DNA of 64,000 nt from an uncultured Opitutia bacterium (GTDB lineage: Bacteria > Verrucomicrobiota > Verrucomicrobiia > Opitutales > UBA953): contig CAIOAN010000002.1 in assembly GCA_903855995.1 (NCBI GenBank), positions 248,001 through 312,000 of the forward strand, read 5' to 3'. This document shows, piece after piece, positions 25,567-37,483 of this stretch. The position numbers and the translations under genes are program-made. A model generated the notes under the pieces. The model worked only from the letters and a program-made list of their open reading frames with translations. It was not told the origin of the DNA and did not search any database. How positions within the stretch are numbered: the stretch's first letter is position 1; each line of letters starts with the position of its first letter.

Positions 25567-26256
25567 TTACTTAGCTTCGAGAGGGTGCTCCTTGGCCAGC
25601 TCAGCCGGGCTATACGGTGCGTGACCGGCGAGGGCCTTGCGGACCTCAGCCACCTTAGTGTCCATGACGGGCTCGGCGTTGTTACCCCAGGCCGAGCGGA
25701 CGTAAGTGGCGATGTTGGCGATCTGGGCGTCCTTCAGGCCGGCGCCGATATTCGGCATGATGCCGACATACTTGACGCCCTTGACCTCAATCTCGCCAGC
25801 AAGGCCAGCGAGGATGGCCTTGATCATCCTCTCATCGGTGCCGGCCACCCAGGGCGAGCCTGCGAGCGGAGGGAAGACGCCGGTAAGGCCGAGGCCCGTC
25901 GGCTGGTGGCAGACCGCACAATTCGTTAGGAAGAGTTTCTCGCCCTTGGCTGCATCGGGCTCGAACACCTTGGAGGCGCCCTCGGCGACGGCCTTGGGAG
26001 CATCGAGATCGAACGCACTGGCAGAGAACTGACCGGAATTACGCGTCAGGTAGAGGCCGGCCCAGAAGCCGAATCCGCAGAACAGGAAGACAATCAGGAT
26101 CGGCGTCAGGGAGAAACCCTCCTGAGGCTCCTCCTTGTCGCGGGCGATCTGCGAGTGAACCTCCACTAGGCGTCCGTCGGAAAGGCCGTCGGAGCCAGCA
26201 CCGGAGGGGCCCCGGCGGTGACGGTTATTATCAGGATGACGATTACGGTCGTTCAT
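25567..26256 (-). CDS. Membrane-anchored monoheme cytochrome c
   Basis: A 229-residue cytochrome c with a long polar N-terminus, one transmembrane segment near residues 50-70 (LTPILIVFLFCGFGFWAGLYL) and one heme site (TNCAVCHQPTGLG). The distal Met is probably in YVGIMPNIGAG. It is the last gene of the ten-gene respiratory operon, in the place a CcoP subunit would hold, but it has only one heme and lacks CcoP-specific N-terminal features. A role as electron carrier from alternative complex III to an acceptor is the likely function. Confidence 0.85.
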   Translation of the reverse strand: MNDRNRHPDNNRHRRGPSGAGSDGLSDGRLVEVHSQIARDKEEPQEGFSLTPILIVFLFCGFGFWAGLYLTRNSGQFSASAFDLDAPKAVAEGASKVFEPDAAKGEKLFLTNCAVCHQPTGLGLTGVFPPLAGSPWVAGTDERMIKAILAGLAGEIEVKGVKYVGIMPNIGAGLKDAQIANIATYVRSAWGNNAEPVMDTKVAEVRKALAGHAPYSPAELAKEHPLEAK

Positions 26257-26802: not shown

Positions 26803-28242
26803 TTAGTCGTGGCGGCTTTCAGCAGCCGGGGCGGAGGATTTAAGGATCATGCCGAAAGCGTTCAACGCGAAGGCCACATGGCCGACGAGGAAGAGGATCG
26901 CGAAGAGGACACTGGCGGTCGCGAGGCCCGAAGAGGCGGCGAGGACCTTGGCATAAGGCACGGAGGCATCGGCGAGCTGTTTGCCCGATTGCCAGCCGAC
27001 CGTAAGGGCGGCGGCGATCGACCCAACCGCAGCCAGAGCGGTCGCCCAGAAATGCAGATGCACCAGTTTCGCGGACGGCCAAAGCGAGCCCGTCAGACGC
27101 GGAAGAATGAAGTACGCGGCGCCGAAGATCACCATAGAGGCGAAGGCGTAAGTCAGGAGCTGCTCCTGACCGGCGCCGAAGGAAGTAAAGCGCACCACGG
27201 CGTTGTAGCCACGGAAAGAGAAGAAAGCATTCAGGAAACCGGCAATCGTGAAGGCGACGGCCCCGAAGGAGACAAAGCGGAGCGTCGTGCTGTTCCAGGC
27301 GCGCGACCAGCCGCCGTCCACCGAAAGCGTACCATGGAAATTGATCGCCGTGATGATGATTGGCACGAGCAACATGGCCGCGCCGACGACCCCGACGGAC
27401 TGCACCCAAAGCGGAATCGGGCTACCGAGCAGGCTGGCCGAGCCCGTCCATCCGGCGAACAGGAAGAAAGTCCAGAAAGCCACGGATGCCAGATAGTAAC
27501 CCGTGATATTCCGTCCCAGCACCTTGGGCAAAAAATAATACACCGAGGCCAACGCGGAGCCACCGAGCCAAAGCAGGAGCAGGTTCTGGATGAACCAGCT
27601 ATGCGCGAGTGCCTGCACGACGCCCGAAGCGGGATTCCAGAGCACCAGCAACTGCGTGAGCAGATAAGTCAGCGGGAAGACGAAGGATGCCCCGACGATG
27701 AACCACTGCGAGGCGAAGGAATGTCCCGTCGGGCGGCGCGCGTAAGCCACAATCGGCCAGAAAGCGGCCAGCAGGAAAGCCACCGCCAGCACTGGGCCAA
27801 CGCCACGAGGCATTTCCAGCAGGCTGAAACTATTCATATCGCCCGCGAAGATACGGAGCACGCCATAGGTGAGCGTCAGATTCCAGACAACCGCACCCAG
27901 CGTTACCAGCCAGGCGTTGCGCAGCTCAAAACGCCCGAGCTGAGAGGTCAGCCAAAGGTTGACGGCGAAGAACGCATTGAAACCCCATCCGTAGATGAAG
28001 AGATTATGCTGCGCCGCGGACACGCGGCCGTAGGTGAAGATCTCGCAGTCAAGGACGCCGGCGGCGGCCTGAAGTTTGAAGGCGGAGATTAGGGCAAGCA
28101 CCGAAGAGGCGAGCAGCCAGATCAAGGCGGAGACGAAGAAGAAGAGAAAGGGACTGCGCAGCTGGGCTTCGACGCGGGAGAGACGCGAATCTCCTTCGGG
28201 AGGGCGGCCCTGCGGGCGGGCGGAATGATTATCCTGTGACAT
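26803..28242 (-). CDS. CcoN-like heme-copper oxidase subunit I homologue lacking the canonical heme and CuB histidines
   Basis: A 479-residue protein with about 12 transmembrane helices, homologous to subunit I of C-family (cbb3) oxygen reductases. The fold-level matches are good: GRV...NLFIYGWGFNA, YYFLPKVLGR, and a 26-residue block aligned without gaps to the high-/low-spin heme ligand helix. The ligands are gone. The first low-spin His position is Gln78 (His79 is adjacent). The CuB His of the GHN motif is Gln219 (WFIQN). The CuB His-His pair is missing (GWTGSASLLG, residues 264-273). The HxH pair holding both hemes is Gln359-Glu-Gln361 (GAGQEQLL). It therefore cannot be assigned as an oxygen reductase. 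A structural, proton-channel or quinol/cytochrome docking role is inference. Confidence 0.85.
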   Translation of the reverse strand: MSQDNHSARPQGRPPEGDSRLSRVEAQLRSPFLFFFVSALIWLLASSVLALISAFKLQAAAGVLDCEIFTYGRVSAAQHNLFIYGWGFNAFFAVNLWLTSQLGRFELRNAWLVTLGAVVWNLTLTYGVLRIFAGDMNSFSLLEMPRGVGPVLAVAFLLAAFWPIVAYARRPTGHSFASQWFIVGASFVFPLTYLLTQLLVLWNPASGVVQALAHSWFIQNLLLLWLGGSALASVYYFLPKVLGRNITGYYLASVAFWTFFLFAGWTGSASLLGSPIPLWVQSVGVVGAAMLLVPIIITAINFHGTLSVDGGWSRAWNSTTLRFVSFGAVAFTIAGFLNAFFSFRGYNAVVRFTSFGAGQEQLLTYAFASMVIFGAAYFILPRLTGSLWPSAKLVHLHFWATALAAVGSIAAALTVGWQSGKQLADASVPYAKVLAASSGLATASVLFAILFLVGHVAFALNAFGMILKSSAPAAESRHD

Positions 28243-28262: not shown

Positions 28263-29028
28263 TTATTTGAGGCCGAGTTCAGCGGTATTCCACATAGCAG
28301 TGCGGGCAGCGTTAGCGGCACGGACGGCCTTGACTTGGTCGACGGAGACCGGGTTGCCCTTGTTGCCGAAACTCTGGCGAACGTAGGTGAGAACATCGGC
28401 GATATCCTGCTCGGTCACGCCGGCGACCGGAGGCATCATGCTGTTAAAGGTCGTGCCCGCAACGGTGATGGGTCCCATGAGTCCGTTGGTGATGAACTTG
28501 ATCGGCAGCTCAGGATTACCGACGACGATGGGCGTCTCGGCGATCGAGGGGAAGACGGGCGGCAGGCCCTTCCCTGTCGGCTGGTGGCAGGCGATGCAGG
28601 TGCGGGCGTAGACGGCGGCACCCCGCTTCATCTGCTCGGCATCGGCCGCAACGAACGGACCAGGAAGATAAGCCGCTGCAGTTGAAGAGCCGGCGGGAGC
28701 GGCGGACACGGCGGGAGTTCCGGCGGCTTGAATCTTGGCGATGACCTTGGGGTCAGCGGCGATGAGCGCGCGAGCAACGTTTAACGGGATGCGGTAAGTG
28801 CCGTCGGCATTGCGCGCGGGCTGGGTGATGAGCTCCAGCGCCTGTTTGTTGTTGTCGACCCGCAGGGCCTTCTCTTCCTGACGGCGCTGTGCATCGGCGC
28901 TGGGAGCCCGTCGGACAAGCGTGTAGGCGGTACCCGTCGCGATTAAAGCGGCGGCGGCGGCGGCGACAACGCCGAGCCAGGAGGAAATCTGGCCGGGAAT
29001 CAGCGGGCGGCTCCCGGAAGAGGGATGG

Positions 29029-29036
<8 letters not shown>
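28263..29036 (-). CDS. Membrane-anchored monoheme cytochrome c
   Basis: A 257-residue cytochrome c with an N-terminal anchor (SWLGVVAAAAAALIATGTAY), a polar Ala/Pro-rich linker and a C-terminal heme domain. The heme site is RTCIACHQPTGKGLPPVFP, and the distal Met is likely in FNSMMPPVAG. Start ATG 29036 lies inside the last codons of actF (overlap ATGAGTGA), so it is translated with that gene. The domain is similar to the last cytochrome of the operon, which suggests duplication. It probably carries electrons between complex III and the downstream module. Confidence 0.85.
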
Positions 29037-30309
<1,273 letters not shown>

Positions 30310-30316
30310 ATGCGAA

Positions 30317-31030
30317 TTACTTGATTTGGGCCTTCACGGCGGCGGGCACGAGGTCGGCGGGGCAGTTCTGCGAGAGCTGCAGCGCACGTACATAGGCGAC
30401 GACCGCCCAGCGCTCCTCGGGGGAAAGTTTGTCGCCATAACCCATCATCGTGTTCTTGCCATTGGTGATGACATCAAAGATTTGGCCGTTCGGATAGCCA
30501 CGGATGATCGGGGCCTGCAGATTGGCGATGGTCACGATCGCCACATCGCCTTCGATTTTGGAGCGGGTCTTCATGATGCCGTTGCCGTCGGCGGCGAGGC
30601 CGTGACAGACCGCGCAATAGATCTGGAATTTACCACGACCCACTTCGAGGACGCGGTCGTTGATTGCGTAGTCCTGCAACTCACCCTTGGCCGTCGCGAG
30701 GGACTTAGCTGGGAAGCCAACCAAGAAAGCACCCTTGGCGTCCTTACCCGTGACAAAGGAAGGGTTGAGGGATTCGGTGCGGCGATAGTTCGGCGAGAAA
30801 ACCTTGCTAGGCTCAAGCGCGTTGCCGCGGGCGACCGTGCCGGCCACCGGAGGGCGGGCGTCGCGGCCATCGGCGAAGAAAGTGTTCTCCCCCTGGGCCT
30901 TGTACTTGTTCTGGTAGTCCATGTCGTCGAAGACATAGACGGGCGTGTCCTTGGACTTCTTGCCCTGGAACCCGAGGAAGCTGACCATGGCGATGACAGC
31001 GACGGCGAGAAATGCGAGATAGCGGCTCAT
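30317..31030 (-). CDS. actE: Alternative complex III monoheme cytochrome c subunit ActE
   Basis: A 237-residue membrane-anchored cytochrome c, the terminal electron acceptor in alternative complex III. It has an N-terminal anchor (YLAFLAVAVIAMVSFLGF), one heme site (IYCAVCHGLAADGNG) and a likely distal Met in KNTMMGYGDKLSPEERW. The protein lies in the normal place between actD and actF, with gaps of 9 and 7 bases. It hands electrons to soluble or membrane cytochrome c, possibly those encoded further down the operon. Confidence 0.88.
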   Translation of the reverse strand: MSRYLAFLAVAVIAMVSFLGFQGKKSKDTPVYVFDDMDYQNKYKAQGENTFFADGRDARPPVAGTVARGNALEPSKVFSPNYRRTESLNPSFVTGKDAKGAFLVGFPAKSLATAKGELQDYAINDRVLEVGRGKFQIYCAVCHGLAADGNGIMKTRSKIEGDVAIVTIANLQAPIIRGYPNGQIFDVITNGKNTMMGYGDKLSPEERWAVVAYVRALQLSQNCPADLVPAAVKAQIK

Positions 31031-31039
31031 GGTTGCGGA

Positions 31040-31582
31040 TTAGGCGCGGATGACGGTGATTTCCTGACCGCCGAGCGACAGGAGGAAGTTGCGGGAATCA
31101 TCCAGATGGAAGCGCGGGTCGCGGGCCTCGAGCACAATCATGAACGTGTCATCGGAGACCCGACTGAACTGCGGGAGATCGAACAACGGATGGTGGTGGT
31201 GCGGCAGGCGGTTGAAGATAAACTGCCCAAAGAACGTCCCAAAGGCGGCGAAAAGAATCGTGCACTCGTAGATGACCGGGAACGGGAAGATGACACTCCA
31301 GTAAGGCTTGCCGCCGACGATGAGCGGGTAGTCGTAGGAGTTCATATACCAGGTGAGCAGACAGCCGGTGATGAAGCCGGTGATGCCGCCCAAAAGGGTC
31401 AGGCGCGGGACCGGCGAGCGGGGCAAGCCCATGGCTTGGTCCATGCCGTGGATTGGGAAAGGCGTATGCACGTCCCAGTTCTTCCAGCCGGCGTCGCGCA
31501 CTTTCTCGGCGGCGTGAAACACGTCGGAGACATTGCGGAAGGTGCAGGCTACGCCGTGGATGCGTTCGTTGCGTTCGTTCAT
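31040..31582 (-). CDS. actD: Alternative complex III subunit ActD (DUF3341)
   Basis: A 180-residue protein of the DUF3341 family. It begins with a soluble segment containing DVHTPFPIHGMDQAMGLP, followed by two transmembrane helices (LLGGITGFITGCLLTW and a second one around residues 105-125) and a short soluble end. ActD has no cofactor and anchors the peripheral arm. Length and motifs fit the family. It is separated from actC by 20 bases and from actE by 9 bases. Confidence 0.86.
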   Translation of the reverse strand: MNERNERIHGVACTFRNVSDVFHAAEKVRDAGWKNWDVHTPFPIHGMDQAMGLPRSPVPRLTLLGGITGFITGCLLTWYMNSYDYPLIVGGKPYWSVIFPFPVIYECTILFAAFGTFFGQFIFNRLPHHHHPLFDLPQFSRVSDDTFMIVLEARDPRFHLDDSRNFLLSLGGQEITVIRA

Positions 31583-31602: not shown

Positions 31603-33012
31603 TCAGTGGGCGTGGGGGTCGGCCTGCGGCGTGACCATCTTCACCTCAGCCATGGGCAGCAGAGGGAGGAAGCGCACGAACAGGAGGAAGAGGACGGAGA
31701 AGAAGCCGAAGGTGCCGAAGAAGGTGAAGATATCCACGATCGTCGGGCTGTAATAACCCCAGCTGGACGGCAGGTAGTCGTTCGCGAGGGACGTGATGGT
31801 GATCACGAAGCGCTCGAACCACATGCCGACGTTGACGAAGAGGCAGATGATCCAGACGAGCGAGTGATTCTCGCGGACCTTCTTGAACCAGAAGAGCTGC
31901 GGAGTGATGACATTGCAGGACACCATGATCCAGTAAGCCCAGGCGTACTGACCGAAGGCGCGATTCACGAAGGCGAACTTCTCGAACGAATTACCGGAGT
32001 AAGCGGCGATGAAGAATTCTGTCGCGTAGGCGTAGCCGACCATCGTGCCAGTGGCCAAGATGATCTTACACATGTTGTCGATGTGGTACTGATTAATGAC
32101 GTCGTGCAGGCGATAGATCGCACGCAACGGGAGCATCAGGGTCAGCACCATCGCGAAGCCGGAGAAAATGGCCCCAGCGACGAAGTACGGCGGAAAGATG
32201 GTGGTGTGCCAGCCAGGGACGTTCGAGACCGCGAAGTCAAACGAGACGATGGTGTGCACCGAGAGCACGAGCGGCGTCGAAAGGCCGGCGAGCAACAGGT
32301 AGGCCATTTCGAAGTTGGACCACTGGCGGTTACCGCCGCGCCAGCCCATGGCCAAGAGGCTGTAGAAGGCCTTGCGCCACCAGGTCGTCGCACGGTCGCG
32401 AATCGCACCGAGGTCGGGAATCATGCCCATGTACCAGAAGAGCGTGGAGACGGTGAAGTAAGTCGAGACCGCGAAGACGTCCCACTCGAGCGGTGAACGG
32501 AACTGTGGCCAGATACCGTTCTGATTCGGAATCGGGAAGAGCCACCAGGCGAACCAGACGCGGCCGACGTGAAAGAGCGGGAACAGTCCGGCGCACATGA
32601 CCGCGAAGATGGTCATGGCCTCGGCGGCGCGATTAATGGAGGTGCGCCACTTCTGACGGAGAAGGCAAAGAATCGCCGAGATCAGAGTTCCGGCGTGGCC
32701 GATACCGACCCAGAACACAAAGTTGACGATCGCCCAACCCCAACCCACCGGGGAGCGCAAACCCCACGTACCCGTGCCGGTGGAGACAAGGTAACCGAGG
32801 CCGATGAACGTGAACGAAGCGACGAAGAGAGCCGCGACGAACATGACCTTCCACCAAAGCGGGGTCGGTTCTTCGACGATACCGCAGACCTTGTCGGTGA
32901 TCCAGTGGAAGCCGCGATTGTTGAGGATCAGCGGCGAGCGCGGAAGCTCGGCTGGTCGAACCCTGTCGAGGATTGCGGGGCGCTCCTGGGAGCTGTCGTG
33001 GGCGTGAGCCAT
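31603..33012 (-). CDS. actC: Alternative complex III subunit ActC (NrfD/PsrC-like quinol-site subunit)
   Basis: A 469-residue polytopic membrane protein of the NrfD/PsrC family that carries the menaquinol/quinol site of alternative complex III. About ten helices are visible, including [20 protein letters not shown] (the Q-site helix region) and [21 protein letters not shown], which is typical of ActC. It lies between actB (22 bases) and actD (20 bases). Confidence 0.92.
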
Positions 33013-33034: not shown

Positions 33035-36000
33035 TTATTGGGCGTGCTTCTCAGCGCCGTGTTCGGGCTGCGCATGGGCTTCGCCGTGGGCGGGAGCACC
33101 ATGCACCGTGCCGTGAGGCGCGGCCGAGTGACCTTCGCGACCGGCCATCTCCTTACGGGAGAGCGGCGTGAGGAGCGCACCAGGCATGCGCAGGTTGAGG
33201 TTACGCAGCTTGGCCTGATAAGTCGTGCGCGGACGGGTGTTGAGGTAGGTCAACGCACCGTAAGAACGGTTCGAAGCCTTGGCCTTGGAGACGCGCGACT
33301 CCGGATCGGTGATATCGCCGAACTCGATCGCGCCGGCGGGACAAGCCTGCTGGCAAGCGACCTGGATGGCGCCGTCCTGAATATTGATTTTGGCCGAATT
33401 GCGGGCGCGGACCTTGGCGTGAATCTTGGCCTCCTGGATGCGCTGCACGCAATAGGTGCACTTTTCCATGACGCCTCGCATGCGGACAGAGACGTCAGGA
33501 TTCTTCTGAAGCTGAGGCAGGTCAGCCGGATCCTTCGGCAACTTCTCCGGCCCGAGAGGACCTTCGTAGTAGTGGCCGTCGACGCGCTTGTTGAAATCAA
33601 GGAAGTTGAAGCGGCGAACCTTATATGGGCAGTTGTTCGCGCAATAGCGGGTACCGATACAACGGTTGTACGCCATGGTGTTGAGACCTTGGTCGTCATG
33701 GACGGTGGCGTTGGCGGGGCAGACGGTCTCGCAAGGGGCGGTTTCGCAATGCTGGCAGGCGACACCCATAAACGTGACCTGCGGGTCTTCCGGGATGGCG
33801 TTGCCGGCCTTCTCGCGGCCGTCGAAGAAGTAGCGGTCCAGGCGGATCCAATGCATGTTACGTCCCTTCAGCACCTGATGGCGGCCGACGACCGGAATAT
33901 TATTCTCGGACTGACAGGCGGTCACGCAAGCGTTGCAACCCGTGCAGGTATTGAGATCGATCGACATCCCCCATTGCTGGAGCTGCAATTCGGTTTCATG
34001 CCCCTTCCAGACCGCTACGTTCGGCGCGGCCCCATGATTAGGATGTTCGTAGGCCGAATTACCGCGCGGGGTGGTGCGGGCTTTGTCGGCCGGCGACATC
34101 GCACCGTCCTTGCCGTAAACGGCGGGTGCGTGTCCGTCGATGCCCAGCTTGGCGAAGGTCTCGTTTTTCTTCATGTCCTCGACACTGCCCTCACGGACGA
34201 TGTCGCGGCCTTCCATCGACCAGTGATCCTGCATATTGCAGACCGCGACAGTGCGCTCGGTAATTTCGATCTTAGCCCCCGTGCGGAAGGCGGACGCCGT
34301 GCTGCTGACAAAACCATAGACGTCGAAACCATTGCCAGTTCGGACGCGACCGGCGAGACGTTCATCGACGCGCGTGGCGACGCGGCCGGCGACCGTGCGA
34401 CCGAAGCCGAGCTGCACACCGATCGTATTATCGGCGAGGCCCGGCATGATGAAGACCGGACCCTGAACGGTATAGCCGTCGACGGTAAGTTTGGCGACGT
34501 GGCAGATCAGGCGACCGGCGTCGAGTTGGTTGATATTACGGTTAAGCGCACCGATCTTGTTGATGACCATCTCCGTTGGCTCGACCGCGAGTTTAGCGGC
34601 CAACTTCGGGCTGATGAGAATGACATTCTCCCAGCAGGTCTTAGACATCGGATCCGGGGCCTCGGCGAGCCAGCCGTTATTGGCATAGGAGCCATCGCCG
34701 GCGTGCACGCTCGGCAGGATGCGTACTTCCAACGAATCAAGCGAGAGAGCCGGGGCGGCGAGAGACTTGATCTGCTCGGCGCTGACGGCCGGCTTGGCGG
34801 CGGCGAATTCGGAATGGGCGAGCACGCCCTCGGCGAGCCAGGCGGCGAAGGCTTCGTCGGAGGCACTCTTCGAGAGCGAGTTGAACGTCTCGCGGACGAG
34901 CGCGTGGGCGTCTTTATCGGTACCGGCGAAAGGCGCGAGAACGTCGAGTTCGGTGACCGTCGCGAAAAGCGGGTCAATCATCGGCTGGACGGGCACGTAG
35001 GTGCCGTTGATGGTACGGCCATCCGACCAGCTTTCGAGGTAATGCGAGGAGGCGAGGACGGTTCCACCGGCAGCCTTAACCAGCGAAGAGGTCTCGTCGA
35101 ACGCGGCACCGAAGTAACCGAGGCGAACGACCTTTTTCGCGGCCTTCACAGCTTCGACGAATTTCGCGTCGGACGGTCCGTCGTAGGCGGGGTTGCCACC
35201 AAGAATGATCAGCGTGTCGGCCGGCTTGGCGGAAAGCGCAGAGATCGCCAGCGAGGAAGCAGCAGGGGCGGCGACATACTTGACCGCGGCACCAAGGGCT
35301 TGGTTCGCGAGGAAGACCGCGCGATGAGCGTCCGCCGTGAGGTGATCGCCAGCGACGATGAGAGCGGACCCTTTCGCCTGCACGAGATCGGCGACGCATT
35401 CCTTGACCCAATGTTCGTCGACGGAGACGCCGGAGACTTTGGCCTTCAGCGCGGCACCCGACGAGTTGTTACCCGTCTGGGCGAGAACTTCGGCGGCAAA
35501 AAGCGCGGCGAGCGCGGAAATATGGGAGGTCGAAGCACGGAGACGGTGATCGGCGGCGGCGCCGGTCAGCGTGAAGGTCGATTCGACGACGTAGAGTCGG
35601 GTCATCTTCTCAGCCTGTTCAGCGCTGTCGGCGCGTCGGGCGGAGGAGTAGGCGCGGGTGTCTTCGACAGTCGTGTCGTGCATGCCCAAGAAATCACGGT
35701 CAAGGCTCAGGACGCGGCGAGCTTTCGCATAATCAGGCAACACGCGCGCACCGAGGATGGCTTCCGCGCGATTTTGGGCGACGGGAGTGTATTCAACCCA
35801 GCGGGCCTTCGGATAGACGGACTTAAGACCAGCCACAAGGCGGGCGCGGGTCGGCGACGTCGAAGGACGGGCCAGGAAAGCAAGACCAGCGCCGGCATCG
35901 GCTTTAGAGGCAGTGGCTAAGCTGGCAAGGAGGGTGCGGACTTCGGCGACGGAAAGAGCAACCCCGTTGGCACCGTAAGACGACTGCGCACGATCTGGAT

Positions 36001-36451
36001 CGTACATGTCGAGCACGCTAGCCTGGGCGTACTTCGATGAGGCACCACCATTGGCATGATGACTCGGATTGCCTTCGATCTTGGTCGGGCGGTGCTGATG
36101 CGTCTCGACGAGAATGGGCTGATTGGCGAACTCGCCCGGGAAGGAGGAAGCGTAGAAAGTCGGGACGCCCGGAATCGTGTTTTCCGGCTGCTTCGAGTAA
36201 GGCAGGGTGTGGTTGCGGGGCTCGCGGCAACCGGCGAGGCCGAGGCCAGCCAGACCGAAGGAGGCACCCATGAGCATCAGGAACTCACGACGCTCGACGG
36301 AAGTGATGGCGGCGGCGCCGTCGACGAACTCGCGTTCGGCGCGCGTGCGGAACTCGGGCGTCTTGTTGCGCTCATCCAAGCTGCGCCAATAGGAGGGACC
36401 GACAGGTTCGCCGGGCTGGGCGACGGGGTGTTCGAAAACTTTCTTGCTCAT
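33035..36451 (-). CDS. actB: Alternative complex III subunit ActB (molybdopterin-oxidoreductase-like plus Fe-S domains)
   Basis: A 1138-residue periplasmic fusion. It opens with a twin-arginine-like signal (VERREFLMLMGASFGLAG). The N-terminal two thirds resemble molybdopterin oxidoreductases (complex iron-sulfur molybdoenzyme fold), although ActB proteins are known not to bind molybdenum. The C-terminal third is a four-cluster ferredoxin-like domain: CTGCNACVTACQSE, CQHCETAPCETVCP, CIGTRYCANNCPY and the final group starting CTYCVQRI and ending CQQACPAG. The third group has Thr in one Cys position, as is usual for the [3Fe-4S] cluster in this family. It moves electrons from quinol (ActC) to the hemes of ActA and ActE. 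Confidence 0.93.
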   Translation of the reverse strand: MSKKVFEHPVAQPGEPVGPSYWRSLDERNKTPEFRTRAEREFVDGAAAITSVERREFLMLMGASFGLAGLGLAGCREPRNHTLPYSKQPENTIPGVPTFYASSFPGEFANQPILVETHQHRPTKIEGNPSHHANGGASSKYAQASVLDMYDPDRAQSSYGANGVALSVAEVRTLLASLATASKADAGAGLAFLARPSTSPTRARLVAGLKSVYPKARWVEYTPVAQNRAEAILGARVLPDYAKARRVLSLDRDFLGMHDTTVEDTRAYSSARRADSAEQAEKMTRLYVVESTFTLTGAAADHRLRASTSHISALAALFAAEVLAQTGNNSSGAALKAKVSGVSVDEHWVKECVADLVQAKGSALIVAGDHLTADAHRAVFLANQALGAAVKYVAAPAASSLAISALSAKPADTLIILGGNPAYDGPSDAKFVEAVKAAKKVVRLGYFGAAFDETSSLVKAAGGTVLASSHYLESWSDGRTINGTYVPVQPMIDPLFATVTELDVLAPFAGTDKDAHALVRETFNSLSKSASDEAFAAWLAEGVLAHSEFAAAKPAVSAEQIKSLAAPALSLDSLEVRILPSVHAGDGSYANNGWLAEAPDPMSKTCWENVILISPKLAAKLAVEPTEMVINKIGALNRNINQLDAGRLICHVAKLTVDGYTVQGPVFIMPGLADNTIGVQLGFGRTVAGRVATRVDERLAGRVRTGNGFDVYGFVSSTASAFRTGAKIEITERTVAVCNMQDHWSMEGRDIVREGSVEDMKKNETFAKLGIDGHAPAVYGKDGAMSPADKARTTPRGNSAYEHPNHGAAPNVAVWKGHETELQLQQWGMSIDLNTCTGCNACVTACQSENNIPVVGRHQVLKGRNMHWIRLDRYFFDGREKAGNAIPEDPQVTFMGVACQHCETAPCETVCPANATVHDDQGLNTMAYNRCIGTRYCANNCPYKVRRFNFLDFNKRVDGHYYEGPLGPEKLPKDPADLPQLQKNPDVSVRMRGVMEKCTYCVQRIQEAKIHAKVRARNSAKINIQDGAIQVACQQACPAGAIEFGDITDPESRVSKAKASNRSYGALTYLNTRPRTTYQAKLRNLNLRMPGALLTPLSRKEMAGREGHSAAPHGTVHGAPAHGEAHAQPEHGAEKHAQ

Positions 36452-36469: not shown

Positions 36470-37171
36470 TTAGCGGTGGCAGCCCGAGCAGCTCTGGGGC
36501 GGGTTGACCTTCCAGTCGTGGACGAACTTCGTCCCCTGCTCGATCTGCTTGGCAGGCGATTCGGCCTTCCAAGCAAGGTCGGTGATTTTGTCGACCGGGC
36601 GCAGGGCGTTCTCCGGATTGCGGTGGCAATCGAGGCAGAACGACATGTTAAGAGCCTTCTGCTGGCCGACAACGGCCTGCTGGTCAATGCGACCGTGACA
36701 CTCCACGCAGCTCACGCCGCGGTTCACGTGCACCGAGTGATTGAAGTAAACATAATCAGGCAACTTGTGCACCTTCACCCAGCGAATCGCGTCGCCCGTC
36801 TCCATGCTCTTCTTGACGAGTGCCAGCGCCGGGCTGTCGGGCTTCACCTGGCTGTGACAGTTCCAGCACGTATTCGTGGTGGGCACATTGGAATGACCCG
36901 ACTTCTCGACGAAGTTGTGGCAGTAGCGGCAATCGAGACCTAGGACGGAATCCGGACCAGCGTGGAAGGAGTGATCGAAGGCCACCGGCTGATCAGGCGT
37001 GTATCCGACGTTCAGATACTTGTTCGTGGCGTACTCGTTGACCGCAGCCGTGACGACGACACCGGTGATCAACAGGCAGACGAGGATCTGGAAGGGGGCG
37101 GCATTGACGCCCCGGGAGAAGAAGTTCCCACGGGGGGCTGGGCGGTTGAGATAATCGAGGAGCTTGCGCAT
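36470..37171 (-). CDS. actA: Alternative complex III pentaheme cytochrome c subunit ActA
   Basis: A 233-residue membrane-anchored multiheme cytochrome. Five CxxCH sites are present: CRYCH, CWNCH, CVECH, CLDCH and CSGCH. Several extra histidines (FDHSFHAG, FNHSVHVN) are suited to bis-His coordination. One N-terminal helix (ILVCLLITGVVVTAAV) anchors it. This is the first gene of the operon. ATG 37171 was chosen because upstream codons to 37243 lack family similarity. A 312-base AT-rich region upstream probably holds the operon promoter. Confidence 0.92.
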   Translation of the reverse strand: MRKLLDYLNRPAPRGNFFSRGVNAAPFQILVCLLITGVVVTAAVNEYATNKYLNVGYTPDQPVAFDHSFHAGPDSVLGLDCRYCHNFVEKSGHSNVPTTNTCWNCHSQVKPDSPALALVKKSMETGDAIRWVKVHKLPDYVYFNHSVHVNRGVSCVECHGRIDQQAVVGQQKALNMSFCLDCHRNPENALRPVDKITDLAWKAESPAKQIEQGTKFVHDWKVNPPQSCSGCHR

Positions 37172-37483
37172 CGCGTTCGGACGAAGGGATTGACGGTTTT
37201 TTGACCGAAGAAGCACGAAAGGCGGACCCCCTTCGCAACCCAAAATTAAGGGGTTTTAGTCGCTTTTCAGGGGTTGCCTGTGAATCAGCACACGAAATCG
37301 CTGTGATTTAACTGTCTATAAGTATCTTAAACTGCTGTTCAATAATTACTTACAAACTTTTGAAGTATTCCAGTCATTTGGGCATGTCTAAAAGCCGCCA
37401 ATGGCCGCTTCCGAACTATTAGACCAGCAACGGGAAAACCCCAGTTGGGCTTATCCCGTTACTGGATTTAAGTTAGGGCTCAA
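37172..37483. other. Upstream region of the respiratory operon, no gene seen
   Basis: About 312 bases without a credible coding frame, clearly more AT-rich than the surroundings between 37250 and 37400. It must hold the promoter of the ten-gene act operon. A TTGAAC hexamer with a TATAGA-like hexamer 16 bases downstream on the minus strand is a weak candidate. Near the tpiA end it contains a strong hairpin (37424-37465, listed separately). Confidence 0.5.
37424..37465 (-). terminator. Hairpin downstream of tpiA
   Basis: A 12-bp stem with one mismatch (CCAGCAACGGGA / TCCCGTTACTGG) enclosing a second small stem (CCCC/GGG). It starts 18 bases after the tpiA stop on the minus strand. There is no clear U-run, so it may be a 3'-end stabiliser or factor-assisted terminator and not an intrinsic one. 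Confidence 0.4.

Follow-up and report, generated by a model that had tools for sequence, protein, structure and literature searches.

A gene on the minus strand of the window (the whole stretch of 64,000 nucleotides analyzed here, from an uncultured Opitutia bacterium) encodes a protein that resembles CcoN, the catalytic subunit of cbb3-type (C-family) oxidases, in which the six histidines that bind heme and CuB and the cross-linking tyrosine are all gone. Loss of oxidase function is well supported by the sequence comparisons below. We favor, with a probability of roughly 70%, the reading that the protein is a pseudo-oxidase, derived from the catalytic subunit of a cbb3-like oxidase linked to alternative complex III (ACIII) and kept as a cofactor-free ACIII scaffold for c-type cytochromes. 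Several roles are conceivable for such a protein, and that of a scaffold is the one we infer to be most likely.

Results

Loss of the metal ligands

The gene reads from 28242 to 26803 as an open frame of 479 codons, with an ATG start and no internal stop. Its product belongs to the Pfam COX1 family (PF00115, E 1.3e-32, 113.7 bits against a cut-off of 34.8), and phmmer aligns it end to end with the solved CcoN chains 3mk7, 8smr and 6xkw (E 1e-14 to 1e-19); against TIGR00780 (ccoN), where the cut-off is 583, it scores only 97.6 bits. The initial annotation had held that every canonical heme and CuB ligand is lost, with glutamine at 78, 219, 359 and 361 and no CuB histidine pair. This is borne out by a MAFFT alignment to Pseudomonas stutzeri CcoN, in which H60, H207, H257, H258, H345 and H347 were verified to be histidines of the reference and the corresponding residues here read Q, Q, A, S, Q, Q. 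The pair that holds low-spin heme b (H60/H347) is replaced by Q78/Q361 and the proximal ligand of heme b3 (H345) by Q359, and of the CuB ligands H207 has become Q219 and H257/H258 have become Ala/Ser, leaving none of the metal sites of a cbb3 oxidase. Nor does the protein have the heme and FeB His/Glu sites of a cNOR-type nitric oxide reductase, since the histidine positions that the two enzymes share are gone. The cross-linking tyrosine of helix VII (Tyr251) is alanine here and in 31 of 31 rows from the genus.

In the genus alignment these 31 rows all share the ligand loss, together with 126 invariant columns elsewhere, which excludes chance or sequencing error. The CuB His207 column is Gln in 13 rows, Ser in 13 and Ala in 5, and the trait is therefore the loss of ligands rather than a specific exchange of His for Gln; of the His-to-Gln changes first proposed, the loss holds throughout the genus and the conservation of Gln does not. 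His79, next to Gln78, is no stand-in for it and lies in a variable column (H11/R9/Q6/K5). When every histidine of the protein was compared with the genus and with relatives that keep their ligands (intact copies, as opposed to degenerate ones), no conserved replacement appeared at any ligand site, and we dropped the idea of displaced ligands.

An ACIII operon

The CcoN-like gene is the eighth gene of an ActABCDEF operon, whose members follow one another on the minus strand in this order:

36470-37243, minus strand: ActA, multiheme c subunit (the open frame reaches 36470; the start codon is not settled)
33035-36451, minus strand: ActB, fused molybdopterin-like and Fe-S domains (QrcC-like Fe-S domain, TAT-variant MoCo_extend)
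31603-33012, minus strand: ActC, NrfD-like membrane subunit with the quinol site (PF03916)
31040-31582, minus strand: ActD (its own Pfam family, PF11821, E 1.1e-60)
30317-31030, minus strand: ActE, mono-heme cytochrome c (PF13442)
29029-30309, minus strand: ActF, NrfD-like ACIII membrane subunit (assigned by gene order and homologues in 32 operons; no Pfam match)
28263-29099, minus strand: small ActF-adjacent membrane protein fused to a cytochrome c domain
26803-28242, minus strand: CcoN-like (C-family COX1) subunit without the six His and the Tyr, 479 residues
26261-26791, minus strand: CcoO/FixO-like mono-heme c subunit (PF02433, E 1.2e-11; CVSCH kept)
25567-26256, minus strand: CcoP-like membrane-anchored c-type cytochrome (PF00034/PF13442; TIGR00782 ccoP 44.5 bits, below the cut-off)

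None of the 32 operons in the initial survey of the class departs from this order, and this conserved membership predicts that the CcoN-like protein is a subunit of ACIII. The description of an intact 479-residue frame within a conserved operon is thus confirmed.

Both c-heme partners of a cbb3 oxidase, CcoO-like and CcoP-like, are present in the operon, although the CcoO-like protein of the window lacks its axial Met, the loop that carries it (S-x-M-P) being deleted; the coordination of its heme c has probably changed. Among degenerate rows the CXXCH motif of CcoO is present in 118 of 118, and the axial Met is found in 57 of 118, against 67 of 67 intact rows. Within the genus, the Met is kept in some CcoO proteins (as in locus L090), and the loop is deleted or rewritten in others. 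The fusion protein at 28263-29099 occupies the stretch where intact operons have a ccoS-like gene; it is found at full length only in the genus of the window, where the cytochrome c domain was gained, whereas in intact operons the small ActF-adjacent protein carries no heme motif, and ccoS comes next.

Predicted fold

An AlphaFold2 model of the CcoN-like protein, made from an input alignment of 46 related sequences, has a pLDDT of 89.3 and a pTM of 0.90 and superposes on chain D of 3mk7 (P. stutzeri CcoN) with Z 49.9 and an rmsd of 1.8 Å over 445 residues. The best CcoN chains reach Z 48-50 at about 1.8-2.1 Å, and CcoN (Z 49.9) is closer than NOR (Z 43.1 and 40.9). The protein has both the 12 helices and the PF00115 match of a COX1 fold. 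Together with the ligand alignment, the match of the model to 3mk7 indicates that the protein has kept the CcoN fold and lost its metal sites. A crude test of heme-cavity filling was negative: on the same face near the ligands, side chains had not become larger in mean volume (p 0.54). Glycine positions such as 211 and 349 turn bulky, a post hoc observation that we do not count as evidence.

An all-or-none pattern among relatives

The CcoN-like protein has matches in 59 of 79 family members and, in a wider sample of the class, in 176 of 236 genomes; these counts include some canonical CcoN and some unclassified matches. The ligand survey covered 141 non-redundant rows, among them seven canonical CcoN and the reference from P. 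stutzeri. The Tyr and the full set of six His are kept in 59 rows; 81 have at most two His, and 80 of these 81 are without the Tyr. The single intermediate row, from an Opitutaceae MAG (L157:4638-6098), lacks the CuB pair and the Tyr and has the four other His (HHARHH, Tyr replaced by Ser), with ccoS still there; this form is a possible heme-only stage.

The residues R57, H60, W203, H207, T215, S240, Y251, H257, H258, Y317, H337, H345 and H347 do not vary among the 62 intact rows and are for the most part changed across 118 degenerate rows, while W42, G72, G85, W120, N121, W216, P275 and P277 are retained in degenerate copies. These two sets contain genomes fetched twice from different collections; the unique proteins in the spacer survey described below number 52 intact and 88 degenerate. 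The residues that replace the ligands vary between lineages.

A few copies stand apart from the operons described here. A ligand-free CcoN-like frame of 347 residues, followed by a cytochrome, has no detected act genes in the 11 kb upstream (L226:11325 region, genome G119) and is possibly decaying or orphaned. The MAG G053 has a CcoN-like copy closer to the window protein and a second, more divergent one (L088:7-1227) with 33% identity to it, which may be a paralogue or contamination. Weak COX1-family matches also lie outside ACIII operons in Opitutales genomes (G163:C1:4498533-4502090, G171:C1:690039-691103 and G102:C1:4070184-4070468).

Linked loss of a ccoS-like gene

In intact operons a small membrane-protein gene related to CcoS/FixS sits between actF and ccoN. 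Of six products tested, three score above the cut-off of Pfam FixS and others come close to it from below, and the copy of one genome (G022) is above the TIGR00847 cut-off. With a profile made from intact operons, a ccoS-like ORF was found in 61 of 61 intact operons and in the one intermediate operon; the 113 degenerate operons gave no hit, not even at E 0.1. Outside the genus of the window, the spacer between actF and ccoN has a median of 420 bp in degenerate operons versus 627 bp in intact ones, about 200 bp shorter. Genome-wide searches with TIGR02745 (ccoG) and TIGR00847 (ccoS) were of no use as genome markers; ccoG follows canonical cbb3 clusters, and TIGR00847 misses most divergent ccoS copies.

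CcoS is required for b-heme insertion into the cbb3 oxidase of Rhodobacter capsulatus (PMC10588857), where ccoS mutants have a cbb3 complex that is fully assembled yet inactive (PMC5742617). The absence of ccoS supports the view that degenerate operons no longer load heme. Because the mutants build a complete, inactive complex, a heme-poor CcoN can still assemble.

Number of losses

Ligand loss is common to the whole sampled genus and recurs independently across the class. On a tree of ActC, ActD and ActF from 77 operons, genes that do not themselves carry the trait, the ligand state changes 12 times (about 10-12 over the bootstrap trees), and well-supported branches require 9 of these changes; ActC alone also gives 12 changes. 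Fifteen losses are required if regain of six His, the Tyr and ccoS is barred. Such a parsimony count does not separate gain from loss, and transfer of intact ccoN between operons could lower it. On balance the evidence tips toward the view that in Verrucomicrobiota the ACIII-linked cbb3 catalytic subunit became, on at least about 10 independent occasions, a structural ACIII subunit devoid of heme and copper, with ccoS lost each time.

Selection

Degenerate ccoN is under purifying though relaxed selection. The median dN/dS is 0.225 for degenerate ccoN and 0.034 for intact ccoN, about 6-7 times higher, a rough comparison in which there are only seven usable intact pairs and dS is high or near saturation. 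CcoO, ActF and ActC are likewise under relaxed constraint. The degenerate genes nevertheless remain open and of full length in nearly every genome searched. A suggested check was whether homologues beside act operons keep Gln under purifying selection; the selection is there, in its relaxed form, and the Gln is not kept. The proposal of a retained non-oxidase role in place of decay is supported, with an adjustment. Full length and a dN/dS far below 1 speak for retention, but the clear relaxation of constraint makes a reduced role a better inference than a new catalytic one.

Other oxidases in the same genomes

The only other COX1 in the genome of the window is of the A type, with COX2 (carrying a cytochrome c domain) and COX3 alongside, a caa3 oxidase on contig C12; no bd oxidase was found in this genome. 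More generally, an A-type COX1 is present in 31 of 32 genomes with a degenerate copy, the exception (G038) being a MAG of 350 contigs whose near relatives carry one. The corresponding figure for genomes with an intact copy is 20 of 26, a weak difference (Fisher 0.038) that ignores relatedness. Among loci with enough flank, an A-type oxidase lies downstream in 14 of the 65 degenerate cases and in none of the 32 intact ones; this is a tendency only and was rejected as a strict rule, as the intact copy of G167 has an A-type cox1 about 1.7 kb downstream. Two genomes (G086 and G222, 99% and 98% complete) have no COX1 besides an intact ACIII-linked copy, and neither COX2 nor bd oxidase. As the sole heme-copper oxidase there, the intact copy is probably a working oxidase.

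Discussion

Our proposal is that the ancestor of the protein was the catalytic subunit of a cbb3-like oxygen reductase integrated in the ACIII operon of Verrucomicrobiota. Many lineages, including the genus of the window, would have given up the two b hemes and CuB; the cross-linked Tyr, residues of the proton channel and the adjacent ccoS went as well, and the complex would have retained the ligand-free subunit as a membrane body. The protein would then bind no heme b or copper and reduce no O2, and would act as a cofactor-free scaffold that holds the CcoO- and CcoP-like cytochromes on ACIII. Electrons from quinol would exit ACIII by way of these c hemes and reach the caa3 oxidase encoded separately on contig C12. 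A relay through CcoO is doubtful in the genus of the window because its axial Met is lost there; electrons may instead pass by way of the cytochrome domain gained at 28263-29099, or of the CcoP-like protein.

Could the gene simply be dying, an A-type oxidase having made the cbb3-like subunit needless, so that the relaxation we see is a stage toward its loss? The raised dN/dS, the relaxation in CcoO, ActF and ActC, the missing axial Met of CcoO in the genus and the truncated 347-residue copy with no act genes nearby are all what such a course would produce. We nonetheless consider it unlikely, as open, full-length frames persist in nearly every genome searched with a dN/dS well below 1, the position is conserved in all 32 operons surveyed in deep lineages, structural residues are fixed among degenerate copies of independent origin, and losses as old as a family, for example that in Methylacidiphilaceae, have passed without deletion of the gene.

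The two other explanations give the protein more to do. That it is a modified cytochrome b, with hemes or copper still held by displaced or unusual ligands such as Gln or a neighboring His, might be suggested by the frequency of Q359/Q361 and Q78 in the genus and by the location of H79, H214 and H395 in the region of the old sites. H79 is not conserved, however; H214 is found only genus-wide and aligns to N in intact copies; H397 and H455 are found in intact copies just as well. The heme-insertion gene is, moreover, missing from 113 of 113 degenerate operons, and replacements that differ by lineage argue against one new coordination scheme, so that we hold this explanation to be very improbable. 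A new specific function, such as conducting protons or ions or binding quinone together with ActC/ActF, would fit a 12-helix membrane body that is kept, operon and all, beside two cofactor-free NrfD-like membrane subunits. But K-channel-type T215, S240 and Y317 are lost in most degenerate copies, and the listed conserved columns hold no new conserved polar residues; this, too, seems to us quite unlikely.

The scaffold reading bears directly on the verrucomicrobial methanotrophs. We take one family in our survey (f13) to be Methylacidiphilaceae because pmoA-type genes occur in every member tested. Its ACIII operons contain ActABCDEF, a ligand-free CcoN, CcoO, a cytochrome c, an A-type cox1 and cox3, with ADAHQT, ADAHQI or SESHFV at the ligand positions. 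All seven pmoA-family loci examined for ligands have the ligand-free form followed by an A-type oxidase, and in the f13 genomes surveyed for COX1 none scored as canonical CcoN-like. In one pmoA-bearing genome (G110, L228:9293-13533) a nos cluster (NosZ, NosD) lies between actF and the ligand-free ccoN, and a nos cluster has been described at the matching place in Methylacidiphilum caldifontis IT6 (PMC11102522). Reviews and genome papers name the ACIII-adjacent gene of these methanotrophs a cbb3-type oxidase (PMC8498564, PMC6688271), and it is one of the three terminal oxidases listed in a physiological study (PMC10205796); these three papers and PMC11102522 all count a cbb3-type oxidase next to ACIII, and one of the four infers a high affinity for O2. 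Judged from the ligand positions, the "cbb3 oxidase" beside ACIII in Methylacidiphilaceae appears to be the same kind of ligand-free protein. The warning that automatic annotation would mislead was therefore apt, given that a homologue has been published as a cbb3-type oxidase.

Comparison with known systems sets off what is distinctive here. With CcoN of C-family oxidases (3mk7, 8smr, 6xkw) the window protein shares the 12-helix fold and the order of CcoO- and CcoP-like partner genes, but it has lost the ligands, Tyr and channel residues, is only about 21-22% identical and has no ccoS. The intact ACIII-linked cbb3-like oxidase of Opitutales and relatives (L062, L064, L077) occupies the same place, is 34-42% identical and shares the conserved structural residues, yet keeps six of six His and the Tyr (62/62 rows) and ccoS (61/61). 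In the ACIII-aa3/caa3 supercomplexes of Flavobacterium johnsoniae and Rhodothermus marinus (PMC5928083) a heme-copper oxidase fold is likewise paired with ACIII and its genes adjoin act; there, however, the partner is an active A-type oxidase, whereas here it would be a stripped C-type subunit. The R. capsulatus cbb3 assembled without CcoS (PMC5742617, PMC10588857) resembles our proposal in being an assembled complex with an inactive catalytic subunit, but it is a laboratory mutant with its ligands intact, while the window protein is an evolved, ligand-free form. We found no earlier report of a ligand-free subunit I in the literature searched, which mostly excluded subscription journals. The new elements are how widespread the loss is, that it arose repeatedly, its link to ccoS and the re-reading of methanotroph annotations.

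In many genomes, then, an annotated terminal oxidase would become a non-oxidase, and ccoS offers a genetic marker that separates active from inactive operons. ACIII in these organisms is predicted to contain a previously unseen cofactor-free body. The lineages may provide some 10 natural replicates in which a respiratory complex sheds its catalytic center and the protein is kept. If this is true, evolution would have repeatedly made a scaffold of a respiratory enzyme inside one operon.
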